A stretch of 64,000 bases of DNA from a virus, in the IMG/VR virus record IMGVR_UViG_3300044811_000010, positions 16,255 through 80,254 of that record; one strand, given 5' to 3'. The translations under genes and the position numbers were made by a program. Below the pieces are notes generated by a model that saw only the letters and a program-made list of their open reading frames with translations, was not told where the DNA came from and ran no database searches. Positions 12,745 to 58,247 of this stretch are shown piece after piece (the first letter of the stretch is position 1; each line of letters starts with the position of its first letter).

Positions 12745-15700
12745 ATGGACATCGCCCACGGCTCAGTCAAGATCGACCTCAACGACGCAGATGTCGTTGC
12801 TGGTCTGCGCAAGGTTGACGCCGAGTTCAGCCGGACGATGGACAAGATCGGCCGCGAGCAGGCGGTCGCGTCGATCAATGCGGACCTCGCGCCGCTTACC
12901 GATAAGGTCGAGAAGGCCAAGCGTAAGCTGCGCGAGCTGCAGGGCGAGAAGGCATCGGCGCGTGTAGACGCCAACACGGCCGAGCTGACACGCAAGATCA
13001 AGAACGCCGAGCGCGAGCTGAAGCGCCTCGACGGGCGCAAGGCGACTCTTGAGATCAAGCTGAAGGGCGCTGAGAAGGTACTCGCGGCCGAGGCTGCCCT
13101 TGAGGCGGCTGAGCACAAGCGCGCCAAGGCTGCGGAGGATGCGGGGCGCCGCATCGAATCTTCTCTGCGCCAGGAGGCCGCTGCTCGCCAGCGCGCCAGC
13201 CGCGAGAACCTGAACCGAGTCAACAGCGACGCGCGAGTCATGCGTTCGCTGGAAGACCAGCGGGTCAAGGAGCAGGCGGCTAGGATGCGTCAGGTCGAGA
13301 ACGACGCGCGCGTTTCGGTCTCCTTGGAACGCCAGCGCGTCAGTTCGATGCGTACTGCGGAGACAGAGGCGCACCGCATGGACGCCGCCTTCCAGAAGGC
13401 TGCCTACAACCGCGACGTGGGCTCGCGCCGCGAAGTCACGCGCATCCTCTCGCTGCAGAAGCAGTATGCCCGGCTGACCGATCAGCTCGAAGCCCTCTCC
13501 CGCAAGCACCCCGTCGGCCGCGAAGCCCGTGCCAAGGTCAACCTCGACGCTACCGGCGTGGTCGCGAAGATGGAGGCGCTGAAGGCGGAGCTGAACTTCC
13601 TCGGCGCGCACCCGCCCATCGACATCAAGGCGGACGTGAACAAGCGCGGCCTCGCGCGCGTCCAGCAGACCGTCACCGGGTTCGTCGCCGGGCTCGCCAA
13701 CAAGGCCAGCGGGCTCCAAGACCTTACCCTCCGACTCGGCCCCTTCACCACCTCGCTCCGGGGTCTGGGAGTAGCCCTAGGGTTCCTCGGGCCGTCGATC
13801 ACCGACCTTCTCGGGGCCGCTGGGTCGCTCGTCGGAGTCCTCGGCGCGGGCGTCGCCGGGGCCGCCGCGCTGGGCGCTGGCGCCGTCACTGGCCTCGCCG
13901 GGGACTTCCTCGGGCTGAAGTTCGCCACCCGCAACACATCGCAGGAGCTGGCACAGGCCCGCACGTCGATCAACGCGTACCAGAGCGCTGTTCTGAAGTA
14001 CGGAGCCGGTTCGGACAAGGCCATCGCCAAGCAGAAGGAGATGAACTCTGTCCTGCAGCAGATCAGCCCGCTCGCCCGCGAGGCGGCGCTCGGCACGGAA
14101 CGCTTCTTCAAGGGCTGGGACGCCTCGACCAAGCCGACGCAGAACAACCTCGGCACCATCGCCAAGCAGGGCTTCGAGGCGCTGAACAAGCTGCGCCCGA
14201 TGTGGGCGGCCTCGACCAACGAGATGTCCGGCGAGCTGCAGAAGGCGCTGGGCGGGGCGTTCAAGTTCCTCGGCGGCGCTCAGGGCCGCAACCTCCTCAG
14301 CGGGATCTTCGGCAACATCAACGCTCAGATCCCGACGCTGCTTCACGGGCTTGGGTCGCTTGGGCACGCGTTCCTGAACCTCGCTTCGGCCGGGGCCAGC
14401 AATTTCGGGTCGCTGGCTAACGGGTTCGACCACTTCGCAACCTCGATCCTGAACTTCACGCAGCAGGACTCCTTCGGGGCGACGGTCCACCGCTGGGTCA
14501 AGGACGCGGGCGACGTGATGCGCTTCTTCGGAGCCCTGACTCGCGTCCTCGTTCACTTCTTCGGCGACGGATCTCAGGCGGGCGACCGCTTCGTCAACAC
14601 GATGACCAAGGCGCTCAACCGCTGGGACACGTTCCTGACTTCGGTCAGTGGGCGTAACAAGGTGGGCGAGTTCTTCTCCAACTCGGTCGCCGGAGCCCAG
14701 CAGCTCTACTCGGCCCTGAAGCCGATCATCCAGCTCTTCGCTCTGTGGTCCATCGGACTTGAGCCCGCTGTCGCGGCGATCACCAGCATCGCCGCGTGGC
14801 TCACCAACGCCGCAGCTTCGCTGGGCAAGATCGTCGGCCTCGGTAACCCGCTGGCGACGCTTGGCACGACTCTCGGCGCCATGTTCGCTGTCAGCAAGAT
14901 CGGCTCTTTCGTTTCGCTGCTCGCACGCGCGGCGGGGCTCATCAAGGACATGGCAGCCGCCGGAGGGGCAGCAGGAGTCCTGAAGGGCGTCATGGGCGGA
15001 GGCTTGCTCGGAGGGCTCAAGGGCGGCGGCGGAATCGTCACAGCGGCCGAGGCAGGCGCGAACGCGATGCGGGCGGCGATTATCTCCGGCGCAACGGTCG
15101 GAGCGGCCGAGCTTCGTGCCGCGATGGTTGAGGGCGGCGCCGTCGGAGCGGCTGAGGGCGGCGCTGGCGGGGGAATCGTAGGCGCCGCGAAGAAGCTGAT
15201 TCTTCCGTCGGGCTTCGCAGCCGAAGCGGCGGGCGCCGAGGCTGCCATTGGCGGCATCAGCATCGCGGCCGGAGCAGCCACAATCGGCGTCTTGGCGCTG
15301 GGCGGCGGCCTGATCTACCTTGGCCTCAGCCTCGACCACCACAAGACTGCTGTCGACCGCGTCAACGACGCCTTGAAGGAGAACGCCAAGTCTCTGCAGA
15401 GCGACGCGACGTACACTCGGCTCTCTGCCGGGGCACAGGACAACGCAGCGAAGTCCCGCCATCAGGCCGCTGCAAGCATCAAGGCGCTGCGCACCGAAAT
15501 GCAGAACGCGACCAAGGGCACCGTCGCCTACCGCGATCTGCAGCTCAAGCTCTACGACGCGAACCAGAAGCTCAAGAACAGCACGGACGCGGGAGTCGAG
15601 TCGGCCCACCACAACCACGACGCGGCTCAGCAGACGATTGACGACGAGCGCAAGCGCATCAAGCTGATCAACGACAGGCTCGACGCGGCGAAGAAGGAAG

Positions 15701-40731: not shown

Positions 40732-41133
40732 CTAGCCGGTGTGCAGGTTGAAGTCCGGAATGATGTTCTGCGGCTTGAGGACGATCTCCGTGTGGTACTC
40801 GCTGACGTTGAGCCCTTCGAGCTGCGTAGCGACGAAGAACATGTTGTCGGCGAGGCCGAAGTAGTGCTTCTTGAAGTCGTGCAGACCCTGCTGGCAGGTG
40901 ACCACCAGCGCCCGGATGCCCGGAAGACTGTCGGAGCCCTCGATGGAGCAGCGGCCGACAACCTCGAACTCCACCTTGTCGGTGATTCCGTTGACGCCGA
41001 TGATTCGGCGCTGGCAGTTGAACTTCTCGCATTCGGTGCTGATGTTCTTCGACACCTTGTCGGCGTTCGACGCACAACCAGCGAGCGGGACGATGAAGAC
41101 GACAGCGAGAAGAAGTGCGATGGTGCGCTTCAT
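40732..41133 (-). CDS. Lipoprotein, beta-sandwich type
   Basis: 133 residues. MKRTIALLLAVVFIVPLAGC is a lipoprotein signal with a lipobox ending at C20. The mature part (about 110 residues, four more cysteines) is beta-rich with VEFEVVGRCSIEG and IRALVVTCQQG, like the lipoproteins annotated in several actinophages. Lipid-anchored phage proteins at the cell surface often block superinfection; that is a family-based inference. It has its own promoter at 41176-41204. Confidence 0.75.
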   Translation of the reverse strand: MKRTIALLLAVVFIVPLAGCASNADKVSKNISTECEKFNCQRRIIGVNGITDKVEFEVVGRCSIEGSDSLPGIRALVVTCQQGLHDFKKHYFGLADNMFFVATQLEGLNVSEYHTEIVLKPQNIIPDFNLHTG

Positions 41134-45964: not shown

Positions 45965-46530
45965 CCTGTCACCGCGCAGATGGCCGTGACCACGACGTTC
46001 GCCGGAGTGGTCGTGTCGGTGTTAGAGATACGCGCCGTCCATGAGTCAGTGCCGCCGGGACCTGACGCCTGAATAGCCGTCGCCGAGGCGGAAGACGCTC
46101 CACCGCCTAGGACGTGTTGCCCGGCATCGCACACGGCCGAGAGGGTAGCCACCTGCAGCGGCCCAATCGAGGCTGACGCCTGCGGATAGGTCACCTGCGT
46201 TACGCCCGGCGAGCCCTGTGGGCCAGCAGGTCCCTGCGCTCCGGGGTCGCCCTTCTCGCCATGAACGGTGATGTTGATGCCGCTCGCCGGGTCGCTCAAG
46301 ACCTCAGTGATAGCGTCGCGCAGATTCGTCTTCGTGATCGCATGTGCCGGCGGCCTGGCCGACGGCGCAAGGTCACGAACGCGCACCGAGCGGTCGTGAA
46401 TGGCGCGCGTGCCTACGGCGCCGGTCCTGATCTGGTTCGGGCCGACCTGAGTGGCCGCGTAGCCCACGCCGCCGCTCGCCAATACGAGCGCGAGGACGGA
46501 GAGGGCCGTGGACGGCGAGGGGAGCCTCAT
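45961..46530 (-). CDS. Secreted collagen-like protein of actinobacterial type
   Basis: 189 residues. A signal peptide (about 1-26, STALSVLALVLASGGVGYAA) is followed by GPNQIRTGAVGTRAIHDRSVRVRDLA, the repetitive section seen in many secreted proteins of Actinobacteria, especially Thermoleophilia. A collagen-like G-x-y run lies at 91-109 (GEKGDPGAQGPAGPQGSPG), then a beta domain with AVCDAGQHVLGGG. Such proteins are usually chromosomal, so this looks captured from a host. It may be displayed on the cell surface or virion. Confidence 0.7.
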   Translation of the reverse strand: MRLPSPSTALSVLALVLASGGVGYAATQVGPNQIRTGAVGTRAIHDRSVRVRDLAPSARPPAHAITKTNLRDAITEVLSDPASGINITVHGEKGDPGAQGPAGPQGSPGVTQVTYPQASASIGPLQVATLSAVCDAGQHVLGGGASSASATAIQASGPGGTDSWTARISNTDTTTPANVVVTAICAVTG

Positions 46531-46973
46531 GCGACCGAAACCTCGCCCTTCATGCGGTCCACGCGATAGGCGCGCGGCTCGTCGCGGTCGGGGTCGTAGC
46601 CCGTGAACGTGACGTGGCCTGCGACCTCCTTGACCTCCGTGGGCTGCAGGGTGCGCGTCTCGATGACGGCGCCGTCGCCCTTGGCGTAGCGGAATGTCAC
46701 GGTCTTGCTGTGGACAGCCGCGAGGCGCAACAGCCCCTCGTTGAAGCTGATCTGCGAAGCCAGAGGAACTCCGTCGAGCTTGACGCTCTGGGGGTGCTCA
46801 GCAGCATCGCCCAAGAATTCGTTGCAGGCGCTGCGCAGCGCACGCACGCCGTCCGTCTGCGCTTCCTGGAACTGGAAGCTGGAAACGTCCCGGTCGCCAT
46901 TGAGGTCGAGGGAGCCTGTCGCCGCGTGAATCTGCAGAACGTCGCCGCAACAGTCTGTGATGTTTACGTGCAT
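46527..46973 (-). CDS. WYL-like domain protein A
   Basis: 148 residues. The C-terminal 60 residues (KTVTFRYAKGDGAVIETRTL, then TFTGYDPDRDEPRAYRVDRM) match the end of WYL domains, which bind nucleic acids or nucleotide-like ligands in regulators. The N-terminal part has CCGDVLQIHAATGSLDLNG. There is no HTH in the chain. CCTAGGAGGTCAACC precedes the ATG. A second gene at 47249-47752 ends the same way. Confidence 0.55.
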   Translation of the reverse strand: MHVNITDCCGDVLQIHAATGSLDLNGDRDVSSFQFQEAQTDGVRALRSACNEFLGDAAEHPQSVKLDGVPLASQISFNEGLLRLAAVHSKTVTFRYAKGDGAVIETRTLQPTEVKEVAGHVTFTGYDPDRDEPRAYRVDRMKGEVSVA

Positions 46974-50300: not shown

Positions 50301-51503
50301 TCAGCCGCTGAAGCGGCCAGTTGAGGCGTCGCGCGACGAGCCGGGGCGGCCGTTGGAGAAGCGGCCCTTGTCGTCCTGCGCAGGGTTGCGGCCGTTACCC
50401 TTAGTGGCCTGCGAGGTCGGGCCGCCCTTGCCATGGATCTTCGCGAGCTGGTACGAGTAGACCGGCTCGACACCGAAGTTCTCGTTGTCGTACTCGACTA
50501 CGGGGTCGCCCTCGGAGTCGAAGTCCACCACGGTCCCCTGATCGCCGTCGTCGTCCTCGACGCGGTCGCCAACCTCGAACTCGTCATCGAGGGAGTCGAA
50601 GGACAGGTCGATGCCGACGCGGCTCTCTTCTGTCACCTGCTCGCGGGTCTGGTAGACAGGGACGCTCAGCGGCTCGTCCACCGGACGGATGACCGTGTAG
50701 CGGCAGACGCGCAGCTTCCACGCCGAGTTGCTGTCGGGGAGCGAGACGATGTCACGGGGCGAGAACTCCACCAGCATGACGGTGTCGCCCTGAAACCCGT
50801 TGGCGTAGCCCCACGTACCGATGTGGAGGCCGTCGCCACACGCCTGCGAGGGGGCGTTGAGCACCTTCGAGCGCGGCATTTCGACCACGTCGCCGGCAAC
50901 CTGCTCGATGAACTCGGAGGCCGTCACGTCGCGGCCGTTGACGATGCCCTCGCCGCGTCGCGACGGGCGGTAGACGGTCGTCTCGTCCGTGCGCCACTCT
51001 GGCGTCGCGGAGTGAACCGACTTGTAGCCGAGGATGTTGCCCTCCGGTGTGATCGTCAGCGGGCCGTCCTTGCGGCCGCCGTCGATCCAGTCGTACAGAC
51101 CGTCGCGCACGTCGCCCAGCGGGTTCGTGAGCAGCTTCTCGTAGAAGTTGACCAGCGGCCCGAAGTCCTCGCCTGCGCTCAGGAAGTCGAGGATCTGCTC
51201 CTGCAGGGTGCCGTGGACGGGGTCGCCGTCGAGCAGGACGTTGTCGCCCTTGACCGTCACGCGGTCGGAGAGGCGCTGGAACTTGCGGGTGATCGTGGCA
51301 CCGATGTCGAACAGGTCGATCAGCTCGGCCTCATCGACGGACTCGCCCTTCATCGACGCCATGCACGCGCCGAGGATGGCCTTGTAGCTCGGGTGATCCG
51401 ACGCGACCGGAGGCTGAAGCCCCTTGCCCGGAATGAACACGACGACGTGGTCGGGCTGGCTCTCGGACTCGGTCTTGATGTGGCTGAACTGGATAGGACT
51501 CAT
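50301..51503 (-). CDS. RIIB-like protein
   Basis: 400 residues. The body resembles phage RIIB-like proteins: LQEQILDFLSAGEDFGPLVNFYEKLLTNP, then GGRKDGPLTITPEGNILGYKSV and ACGDGLHIGTWGYANGF. An acidic linker (EVGDRVEDDDGDQGTVVDFD) and a G/R/S/N-rich disordered end follow. It lies directly downstream of the RIIA-like gene as in T4. T4 rII proteins are membrane-associated and affect lysis timing and exclusion by lambda rex; here the role is inferred. Confidence 0.72.
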   Translation of the reverse strand: MSPIQFSHIKTESESQPDHVVVFIPGKGLQPPVASDHPSYKAILGACMASMKGESVDEAELIDLFDIGATITRKFQRLSDRVTVKGDNVLLDGDPVHGTLQEQILDFLSAGEDFGPLVNFYEKLLTNPLGDVRDGLYDWIDGGRKDGPLTITPEGNILGYKSVHSATPEWRTDETTVYRPSRRGEGIVNGRDVTASEFIEQVAGDVVEMPRSKVLNAPSQACGDGLHIGTWGYANGFQGDTVMLVEFSPRDIVSLPDSNSAWKLRVCRYTVIRPVDEPLSVPVYQTREQVTEESRVGIDLSFDSLDDEFEVGDRVEDDDGDQGTVVDFDSEGDPVVEYDNENFGVEPVYSYQLAKIHGKGGPTSQATKGNGRNPAQDDKGRFSNGRPGSSRDASTGRFSG

Positions 51504-51537: not shown

Positions 51538-51566
51538 ACACTACAGTACGGGCGGGTGTTTGTCAA
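51538..51566 (-). promoter_or_regulatory. Promoter TTGACA-N17-TAGTGT (rIIB-like)
   Basis: -35 51561-51566, -10 51538-51543 on the minus strand. The TGA of the -35 is the stop codon of the RIIA-like gene. A GTGTT/AACAC repeat overlaps the -10 and the start region. Confidence 0.72.
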
Positions 51567-53605
51567 GCGAACTGGCCGGCGTCAACCAGGTTCAGGTAGC
51601 TGTAGACGTGGGCTGCGTTGCTCCGCGTATAGCACGAGCTGTAGAGCGGGTACTTAGTCAGCGGGTTCTTGAACACCGCCTTCGACGCGGCTGCGGTGTT
51701 CACGACGCGCCGGAACTCACGCCTCGACTCGATCAGCGGGCTCACGTTCACCTTGGAGTCGCGGATAGCTTGCCTGAGCAGCTTGTCCGTGACCTTGGTC
51801 GGGTCAAGCACCTTGAACTCGTTGGTGAGGTTTGCGTCGTAGATAGCGATGGCCGCCCGCTGCGCGCGGCTCAGCCCCTTGAACCACTTGTCGTAGACAG
51901 CGGTGCAGCCCTCAGTGACGCGCTTGGCGGTCGGCAGCTCGCGGCAGAACTTCTCGATGCGGTTGCCGGGGAGACAGACCAGCGTGAAGGCTGGCATATG
52001 CCCGGCCAGCACCGCCGCGTACTCGGAGCAGCTATAGCGGTTTCCCTGATGCCAGAACACGGGGTTGCGCAGGTTGATCTTGTCGCCGGGGACGCCATGC
52101 GAGAACTCAGCCCGCGCCTCGCCCCGCTTCTTCGTCCACAGATCGAAGCTGCCGGCGATGCGGGCTGGGCGCCCGTTGATCGTCGTGTTCACGGCGAGCT
52201 TGATCGCCTTGATCGTCGTCCAGTCCACCACCATCTTGGGGTCGATGAACACGGACACGGGCGCCGGGCCGCGCACCAGCGCGAACTGGGAAACCACGTT
52301 CGGCGCCTCGGTCCCGAACTGCTGCCCGGCCCAGACGTGCAGCTTGTCCTTGTGCTGCGCGGTGAACTTGGCCGGGTCGAAGCCTGCGACCCAGACGGTC
52401 GTAGGCCAGTCGTGGATGGATAGCGTCCCGAACTTGGACGTGTTCGAGCGCGTGCGGCCGTGGTTGCGGTACGGCGCAACCTCGATAAGCGCGGGGAGCT
52501 GCGCGCCGCGATAGTCGAGCTTCGGGTTGCCCAGCACGTCCACCTGCGGGGGCGGGGTGAACCCGACCGGGAGCGGTGTTCCCTTGTAGGTGTAGTTGGA
52601 CACAGCCTGGTTGCCGGCCACGTACTTGTTCCACTTGACGATGATCCGGACGGCGGCCTGCGGCGTCGGCGCCGCGTCAACCTCCCGCTGGATCGCGTTG
52701 TTGATTTCGCGTCCGAAGTCGCCTTCGATCCGCTTGATCGTGGCCTTCGTCTTGTCTGTGTCCATCAGCGCCTCGCGGCTCGGCGCGAAGTTCACGTCTC
52801 CGATGGCGACGTGAGCCATCACCTCCACGTCGGAGTAGTTGCCGTAGCCCCGGCCCGCCCTATTGCCATAGCGCGTCGAGACGTGGGGCAGATCGAACAC
52901 GGCCGGGTAGGTCACGCCGCCCATGACGATGTAGCTCTGAGAGTCCTCAATGATGTAGAGGTCGTCGGTTAGCCGCAGACCCTCGAACGGCTTAGGCGTC
53001 TCGCCGTCGAGCAGCACCGTGCCCTTCGCCCAGACCGAGAAGAACCGCTCCGCCTTGGCGCGAATGTCGTTGCCGCGCTTGGCCGGGATCTGAACCTCGG
53101 TACCGTCACGCTGATCCGTGCTCGACGTGTCGAGCACGGTCATCGACCCAGCGCCGTCAGCGTCGCGGGCGACCACGACGGTCACCATGACGCCATCCTT
53201 GACCGAGACGACCGTGAACTGGTCGCAGTAGGTCAGGGCGCTCTTGCAGCCGAGTCCGAGCATGCCGTTGAAGTCGTTGCTGTTGCGCTTCGTGGACGTG
53301 CCGTACTGGCTGTAGATCGTGTGAATGTCATCGACCGTCAGTCCGATGCCGTAATCGCGGATCTTCAGGAACGGCGAGAAGGCCGTCGGGGTCGTGACCT
53401 CGATGGGGTCGTTGCGCCCCGCCTCGACGGTCGCGTCGCGGCCGTTGGTGCTGTACTCACGGATGACCGCCAGCTCGGGGTCCGAGTACAAGTCAGTCAG
53501 GATGTTCATGATGTGCGCCATCGCGGCCGGGTCGATGCCCATGGCGACCTTGTCGCCGCCGAGCGTGCTCTGGACCTGAATGCCGTTGTTACGGTCTGCG
53601 ATCAT
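51563..53605 (-). CDS. RIIA-like protein with GHKL ATPase domain
   Basis: 680 residues. The N-terminal GHKL ATP-binding motifs are clear: IREYSTNGRDATVEAG (N box, about 48-63), FLKIRDYGIGLTVDDI (G1, about 80-95) and NGMLGLGCKSALTYC (G2). A second beta-rich section includes DVEVMAHVAIGDVNFAPSREAL (as in RIIA-like proteins). The C-terminal 150 residues are helical. It pairs with the RIIB-like gene, each with its own promoter. Probable role in host takeover, lysis timing or exclusion. Confidence 0.78.
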   Translation of the reverse strand: MIADRNNGIQVQSTLGGDKVAMGIDPAAMAHIMNILTDLYSDPELAVIREYSTNGRDATVEAGRNDPIEVTTPTAFSPFLKIRDYGIGLTVDDIHTIYSQYGTSTKRNSNDFNGMLGLGCKSALTYCDQFTVVSVKDGVMVTVVVARDADGAGSMTVLDTSSTDQRDGTEVQIPAKRGNDIRAKAERFFSVWAKGTVLLDGETPKPFEGLRLTDDLYIIEDSQSYIVMGGVTYPAVFDLPHVSTRYGNRAGRGYGNYSDVEVMAHVAIGDVNFAPSREALMDTDKTKATIKRIEGDFGREINNAIQREVDAAPTPQAAVRIIVKWNKYVAGNQAVSNYTYKGTPLPVGFTPPPQVDVLGNPKLDYRGAQLPALIEVAPYRNHGRTRSNTSKFGTLSIHDWPTTVWVAGFDPAKFTAQHKDKLHVWAGQQFGTEAPNVVSQFALVRGPAPVSVFIDPKMVVDWTTIKAIKLAVNTTINGRPARIAGSFDLWTKKRGEARAEFSHGVPGDKINLRNPVFWHQGNRYSCSEYAAVLAGHMPAFTLVCLPGNRIEKFCRELPTAKRVTEGCTAVYDKWFKGLSRAQRAAIAIYDANLTNEFKVLDPTKVTDKLLRQAIRDSKVNVSPLIESRREFRRVVNTAAASKAVFKNPLTKYPLYSSCYTRSNAAHVYSYLNLVDAGQFA

Positions 53606-57841: not shown

Positions 57842-58247
57842 TAGGTGCCTCCTTTCAGCAGCCGAACATGCGTTCGTCTATCGGTCTAATCTTCATACCT
57901 TCCAGCGGCCGAGATAGAGCATTGTCGGACACACCTGTCCCTCTCTAGAGAGGGACGACGGTGTACGTCCGAAATCCTCAACAAACACGGGCCATAAAGT
58001 TGGGACATTCGTACCACTTACATAGGCTTCGTACCACCTTAGGGGTACTTTCCTAAAGCCCAGCTAAAGATCTGGTATGAATCTGGTATGTAAGTCCCGT
58101 GCTTACTGGGTATCTCGGACATTCGTACCAGTCTAGGAAAGTTAGATAAACGTGACCGTTTTTCTGGCTCCGAAAACCTAATCCCCAGTAAGCACGGGAC
58201 TTGTGGCGCGTTGCCACTCAAATTTATGCCCGGAAGTGGTACGACCG
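57842..58247 (-). other. AT-rich control block: candidate origin or operator cluster
   Basis: No gene fits here. The block is distinctly AT-richer than its surroundings. It holds a 20-bp perfect palindrome (57937-57956, centre CTCTAGAG), two copies of GGACATTCGTACCA (58003-58016 and 58117-58130), and further TTCRTACCA-type sites in both orientations (58028-58036, 58073-58081, 58237-58244, plus a variant at 57892-57900). It also has tandem ATCTGGTATG at 58070 and 58081, and a 19-bp perfect inverted repeat (58092-58110 with 58184-58202). This fits iterons of a replication origin or a multi-operator promoter region. Confidence 0.55.

Follow-up and report, generated by a model that had tools for sequence, protein, structure and literature searches.

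A 406-bp gap between two genes that read in the same direction raises the question of what such a stretch of non-coding DNA does in a phage genome. The gap lies in G000, an 80,254-base IMG/VR virus record, of which bases 16,255 to 80,254 (64,000 nucleotides) form the stretch here called the window. Its GC content is 50.2%, against 64.3% for the window, and the lowest-GC 300-bp stretch of the whole contig (48%) falls inside it. The sequence-only reading had delimited the gap, described it as non-coding and AT-rich between leftward genes, and placed in it at least six TTCRTACCA-type sites in both orientations, a perfect 20-bp palindrome, and a 19-bp inverted repeat, also perfect, whose arms are separated by 73 bp. 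All of this was borne out, the sites being counted as four exact and three with one mismatch (Table 1). Of its further proposal, a replication origin or a master operator, the operator half is supported, since seven phages carry the sites at promoter positions in a divergently transcribed region and leaderless −10 elements contain them too. The origin half, addressed through indirect evidence, is not supported, given the GC skew, the dispersal of the sites, and the presence of only a site pair at the syntenic G006 place. The sequence-only reading did not include the second copy outside the window, the conservation in relatives, or the longer bulged stem to which the palindrome belongs. The likeliest role for the gap is that of a control region in an uncultured phage, and, judging from the sequence, the block within it is probably a transcription control hub, in which boxes at −10 and −35 positions would be bound by a regulator and a bulged stem-loop forms a separate element.

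The two flanking open reading frames are each preceded by a strong Shine-Dalgarno sequence, and family searches with both genes gave no match. The 86-aa protein aligned with its G006 counterpart over 58 aa at 34% identity (BLASTP, E = 2e-9 in a single comparison). The block and the surrounding 24 kb showed no DNA similarity to known phages, and viral contigs queried with both flanking genes yielded no relatives.

TABLE 1 Features of the gap and associated loci (window positions unless a contig is named)
Feature	Position	Strand	Remarks
AT-rich non-coding block, putative control region	57842..58247	.	Between two leftward genes
Flanking gene, downstream, 165 aa	57344..57841	-	No family match
Flanking gene, upstream, 86 aa	58248..58508	-	Homologous to the gene at the same place in G006
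Degenerate site TTCATACCT	57892..57900	+	1 mismatch; weakest member
Bulged stem-loop (predicted)	57926..57971	+	Apical palindrome, 2-nt 3' bulge, outer stem ACACC/GGTGT
Perfect 20-bp palindrome GTCCCTCTCTAGAGAGGGAC	57937..57956	.	Apical part of longer stem
80-bp module	57942..58022	+	88%-identical copy at G000:C1 13103-13181 (-), upstream of portal gene
Degenerate copy of CCCAGTAARCACGGG element, reads CCTCAACAAACACGGG	57974..57991	+	Sequence comparison
Site TTCGTACCA, pair member 1, context ACATTCGTACCACTT	58008..58016	+	Exact; pair spacing 20 bp
Site TTCGTACCA, pair member 2	58028..58036	+	Exact; pair kept at syntenic G006 place
Site TTCATACCA	58073..58081	-	Exact TTCRTACCA
Site TACATACCA	58084..58092	-	1 mismatch; 11 bp from 58073 site
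19-bp inverted repeat, left arm = CCCAGTAAGCACGGG element	58092..58110	-	Perfect
Site TTCGTACCA, context GGACATTCGTACCAG	58122..58130	+	Exact TTCRTACCA
19-bp inverted repeat, right arm = CCCAGTAAGCACGGG element	58184..58202	+	Perfect; gap 73
Site GTCGTACCA (= GTGGTACGAC on + strand)	58237..58245	-	1 mismatch
HTH protein, 104 aa	26872..27186	-	Between terminase genes and peptidyl-tRNA hydrolase-like gene

A single 123-bp part of the gap accounts for every exact TTCRTACCA match in the 64-kb window, four in number. When one mismatch is allowed, the whole window holds 15 matches against an expectation of 8.6 ± 3.0; the excess over chance therefore lies in how the sites cluster and in the exact matches, not in the total count. 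The form GTGGTACGAA occurs nine times in G000 at one mismatch or fewer, and its reversed control does not occur. In G006, the reversed-control pattern was as common as the motif (seven against five), and therefore only exact sites are counted there.

The second copy of the module lies outside the window, where the portal gene (rightward from 13,273; assigned by tblastn matches to proteins annotated as portal) and a leftward gene with its start at 13,060 leave a gap. With the portal protein and DNA patterns as queries, scans of viral contigs recovered six relatives, namely, L011 (from the same contig as L009), L012, L013, L014 (from the same contig as L010), L015, and L063, the last on G006, an 80,397-base contig from a near-complete relative; these are other uncultured phages. 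The exact pattern GGGACATTCGTACCAC led to two true relatives, along with a coding match due to chance (L008), and of 10 matches to the pair pattern CGTACCAC-N12-CGTACCAC two were true (L063 and the already known L013 contig). The portal-upstream architecture is common to all six relatives, with its elements in an unchanged order. Read leftward, site 1 (GTGGTACGAA) lies by the portal start and is followed by a perfect or near-perfect palindrome and then by site 2 (CATTCGTACCACTT) and site 3 (TGTGGTACGATTCC), placed 2 to 5 nt ahead of the leftward gene's start codon.

The block itself has a counterpart in G006, at 70,718 to 70,763 (E = 2.7e-6), where two boxes are spaced 20 bp apart like those at 58008 and 58028. 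The two loci lie at similar distances, since the portal-upstream region is 19.1 kb from the block in G000 and 19.7 kb in G006 if the contigs are circularly permuted; the permutation is supported by a like match in the distance from the portal-upstream region to the HTH gene (50.9 kb in G006 and 50.1 kb in G000). The sites are thus conserved in related phages, both upstream of the portal gene and at the syntenic position. The sequence-only reading had named the lack of a skew switch together with a lack of conserved repeats as grounds for its refutation; the first was found and the second was not. The G006 block contains just two exact or near-exact boxes, with no matching stem, and the pair stands immediately upstream of TTGACA-17-TAGATT-6-ATG, a canonical sigma70-like leaderless promoter. 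The gap of G006 that corresponds to the block also holds some five tandem copies of a roughly 27-bp unit (GGAACGAGAGGAGGCGCAGGGAACCCA, L070:4245-4370).

The boxes recur at promoters. In G000, non-coding DNA, which makes up 13% of the genome, contains the heptamer GTGGTAC 14 times and coding DNA 5 times (P = 2.6e-9), and GTGGTACGA was non-coding in all eight occurrences, a bias absent from other 7-mers of comparable makeup; these fractions are approximate because the gene calls came from a simple script. The longer form GTGGTAYNNT occurred 18 times in about 82 kb of the relatives' loci (a few overlapping records included) where 2.6 occurrences were expected, and a start codon followed at 5 to 8 nt in 11 of those 18 and in 3 of 8 cases in G000, compared with about 12 to 13% in permuted controls. 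This placing clearly points to a leaderless extended −10 element; a sigma70-type example at G000 914 reads TTGACT-17-TACGAT. At the portal promoter, the reversed box TTCGTACCAC ends 16 to 18 nt before a NANNCT −10 hexamer, which in turn lies 6 to 8 nt before the portal start codon, in all seven phages; the fixed spacing indicates that the box replaces the −35 element. The same box is thus found at two defined promoter positions, −35 (portal, 7/7) and −10 (leaderless genes).

It could be argued from these data that every site is an extended −10 element read directly by RNA polymerase, of the host or modified by the phage, that no separate regulator exists, and that the block is a bidirectional promoter cluster that includes antisense promoters. 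GTGGTAYNNT does form a clear leaderless −10 class, and switching to extended −10 promoters is known in phages, as in P23-45 with gp39 (PMC7403470). However, the copies in the block and at sites 1 and 2 read TACGAA, in which position 6 is not T, and inspection showed no conserved −35 upstream of them. Site 1 is moreover inverted and, in seven of seven phages, stands at the portal promoter's −35 position. We therefore consider this explanation unlikely and continue to favor a hub at which a regulator acts.

The palindrome is the tip of a bulged stem of 47 nt. The window copy folds at −27.4 kcal/mol (z = −4.8), and in most copies an inner stem of 8 to 10 bp is joined to an outer stem of 4 to 6 bp that is offset by a 1- to 3-nt bulge or internal loop on the 3' side. 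In a gap-free alignment of the six relatives and the window copy, placed by hand-trimming and with the window copy padded by one N in an unpaired loop column, 89.8% of cells were paired, 27 cells were changed on both sides compared to a shuffle mean of 10.3, and the covariation score was 0.741, against 0.258 in shuffled alignments and at most 0.255 in slid ones; these statistics come from only seven sequences, whose kinship inflates the shuffle tests. No G-U pairs were found across the seven aligned copies. The independent test of the stem is that a covariance model built from the six relatives alone recovers the window copy (24.8 bits, E = 0.003 in 130 kb). In G006, the model finds one stem alone, at the portal. 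It misses the portal-upstream copy of G000, which has a 2-nt loop, and so the membership of that copy rests on the 88% identity of the module and on its own perfect stem.

As to what the stem does, no credible Rfam covariance-model match was obtained for either copy, and the window stem-loop does not have the GC-rich stem plus U-tract of an intrinsic terminator, although it may be a tailless one. The one terminator-like site in the block (58199-58183, with 0.5 expected by chance) is separate from it. The two copies within one genome have near-identical flanks, yet both arms of the stem have been swapped for a different complementary sequence. Replacement of the arms with full complementarity retained and with no G-U intermediates points to selection on DNA shape or to turnover of a copying type. 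It is possible, although we advance it only tentatively, that the stem-loop represents a cis element of a new kind, in which a double-stranded or cruciform DNA shape is selected (or the arms turn over by a copying mechanism), and that it is coupled to a regulator-box array that serves an undescribed phage family as its lytic switch.

Covariation confined to Watson-Crick pairs is what is expected of an element acting as DNA, and together with the direct repeats, low GC content, and palindrome it would suit a replication origin, with the sites as iterons for an initiator, the AT-rich DNA as an unwinding element, and the palindrome as a structural signal. The sequence-only reading had proposed cumulative GC skew as a check; the cumulative skew of the contig has its maximum at 12,878, at the portal-upstream switch of gene strand, and its minimum at 50,547, with none at the block (74.1 to 74.5 kb of the contig). 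The primase, polymerase, and helicase genes are 14 to 26 kb away (replication genes at 31.8 to 43.5 kb of the window). Measured against an iteron array, the block offers seven boxes of mixed orientation in DNA of 50% GC, and identical boxes overlap −10 and −35 elements at promoters in many other places instead of forming one cluster. The syntenic block of G006 keeps the site pair alone, directly upstream of a sigma70-like promoter and without the stem. On this indirect evidence an origin is, in our judgment, quite improbable.

A site for packaging (pac/cos), recombination, or partition, to which terminase, resolvase, or a ParB-like protein would bind, is very improbable, since, although one copy lies upstream of the portal gene and the palindromes keep their form and not their sequence, the terminase genes are elsewhere (window 24.7 to 26.7 kb), the scanned genes include no ParA/ParB or integrase and a single gene with an RDF-like profile match, and the boxes are found at ordinary leaderless promoters too. 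In the window, a leftward gene at 40732-41133 (-) matches the PHROGs recombination directionality factor profile (E = 8e-37; Pfam Phage_VG64).

For the proposed transcription control hub, what the data show is sequence conservation, position relative to −10 elements, −35 elements, and start codons, and covariation; protein binding, the sign of its action, and cooperation between the loci are inferred. A phage-encoded or phage-modified DNA-binding regulator would recognize an asymmetric box of about 12 bp, AAGTGGTACGAA (= TTCGTACCACTT). Copies 20 and 11 bp apart share one face of the DNA, which suggests cooperative loading. Where the box lies over the −10 element (GTGGTACGAT, leaderless genes), the regulator would repress; where it takes the −35 place, 16 to 18 bp before the −10 of the portal promoter, the regulator could repress or activate. 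With the box at either position, one protein could therefore shut one class of promoter and gate or activate the other. The multisite block, part of the leftward arm, would control the adjoining leftward operon; it may also act together with the region upstream of the portal gene, at a distance of 19 kb on the permuted genome. A second, separate cis element would be the bulged stem-loop, acting as RNA (a leader or a terminator/antiterminator) or as a DNA structure. Against the hub reading, a search of the block itself for a strong sigma70 promoter found none, and GTGGTACGAA sites, which lack the −10 T, are not necessarily read by the same factor as the GTGGTACGAT promoters.

The HTH protein is the only conserved candidate for the regulator; its homolog in G006 is 53% identical and stands in the same gene order. 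The 105-aa protein by the portal gene, downstream of site 3, was considered as an autoregulated repressor; it is conserved, and it was rejected as an obvious regulator because it is predicted to be a helical bundle and no HTH was inferred. A WYL protein (window 46527-46973) is not conserved, being absent from G006 and from the fragments. The rIIA- and rIIB-like genes of the window lie at 51563-53605 and 50301-51503 (-), and Streptomyces phages encode the nearest rIIA homologs (35% identity); G006 lacks both RIIA and the GP88-like protein at the search sensitivity used.

A number of phage systems invite comparison. The stoperators of Cluster A mycobacteriophages (L5, TipsytheTRex repressor) are short asymmetric boxes spread genome-wide at promoters and intergenic gaps and are read by a monomeric two-domain repressor (PMC9283540). 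The likeness is in the short, asymmetric, repeated boxes at promoters and intergenic gaps, whereas the boxes described here are clustered in two hubs and overlap −10 and −35 elements. To our knowledge, the Cluster A consensus is unrelated to the box of this phage. No member of the stoperator-repressor family was found among the Pfam and PHROGs matches of the scanned genes. In Cluster K, the start-associated SAS is a conserved element of about 13 bp just before start codons, overlying the ribosome-binding site, and the ESAS is an upstream inverted repeat near putative SigA promoters, with arms that lack base-pairing support (PMC3203893, PMC11373665); here, instead, the element is the −10 of leaderless genes, and compensatory change in the stem is strong. 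Middle and late promoters of P23-45 have an extended −10 without a −35 (PMC7403470). Our sole link to that phage is a DNA polymerase with 25% identity, and the promoter likeness is drawn from the literature. In T4 middle promoters, the MotA box takes the −35 place, like the portal box. The put antitermination RNA of HK022 forms bulged stem-loops close to the start of two operons, which is alike in form and placing, but the stem sequence here turns over completely. A literature search with the box string gave only unrelated papers among the best-ranked results. Stoperators, SAS/ESAS, MotA boxes, and P23-45 extended −10 promoters are the nearest known kinds, by likeness and not by any claim of homology.

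No phage in the collection searched is a close DNA relative of this family, and the present data offer a sequence-level map of its possible promoter control, with a leaderless extended −10, a box that replaces the −35, and two hubs 19 kb apart. If the regulator were found, a reporter strain could be used to reconstruct the system, and the box would allow further family members to be recognized from DNA alone.

A third possible control spot is present at G000:C1 361-438 (L006), where boxes at 361 and 386 are followed by TACGAT 6 nt before an ATG; a similar AAAGTGGTACGAAGCCC is present in G003, close to a matching CCCTAG palindrome. A promoter-like GTGGTACGAT element also stands right after the tRNA cluster in two related phages (G000:C1 11096 [L006:11096] and L072:11629), and a hairpin within about 70 to 100 nt beyond it in both may mark a small RNA gene.
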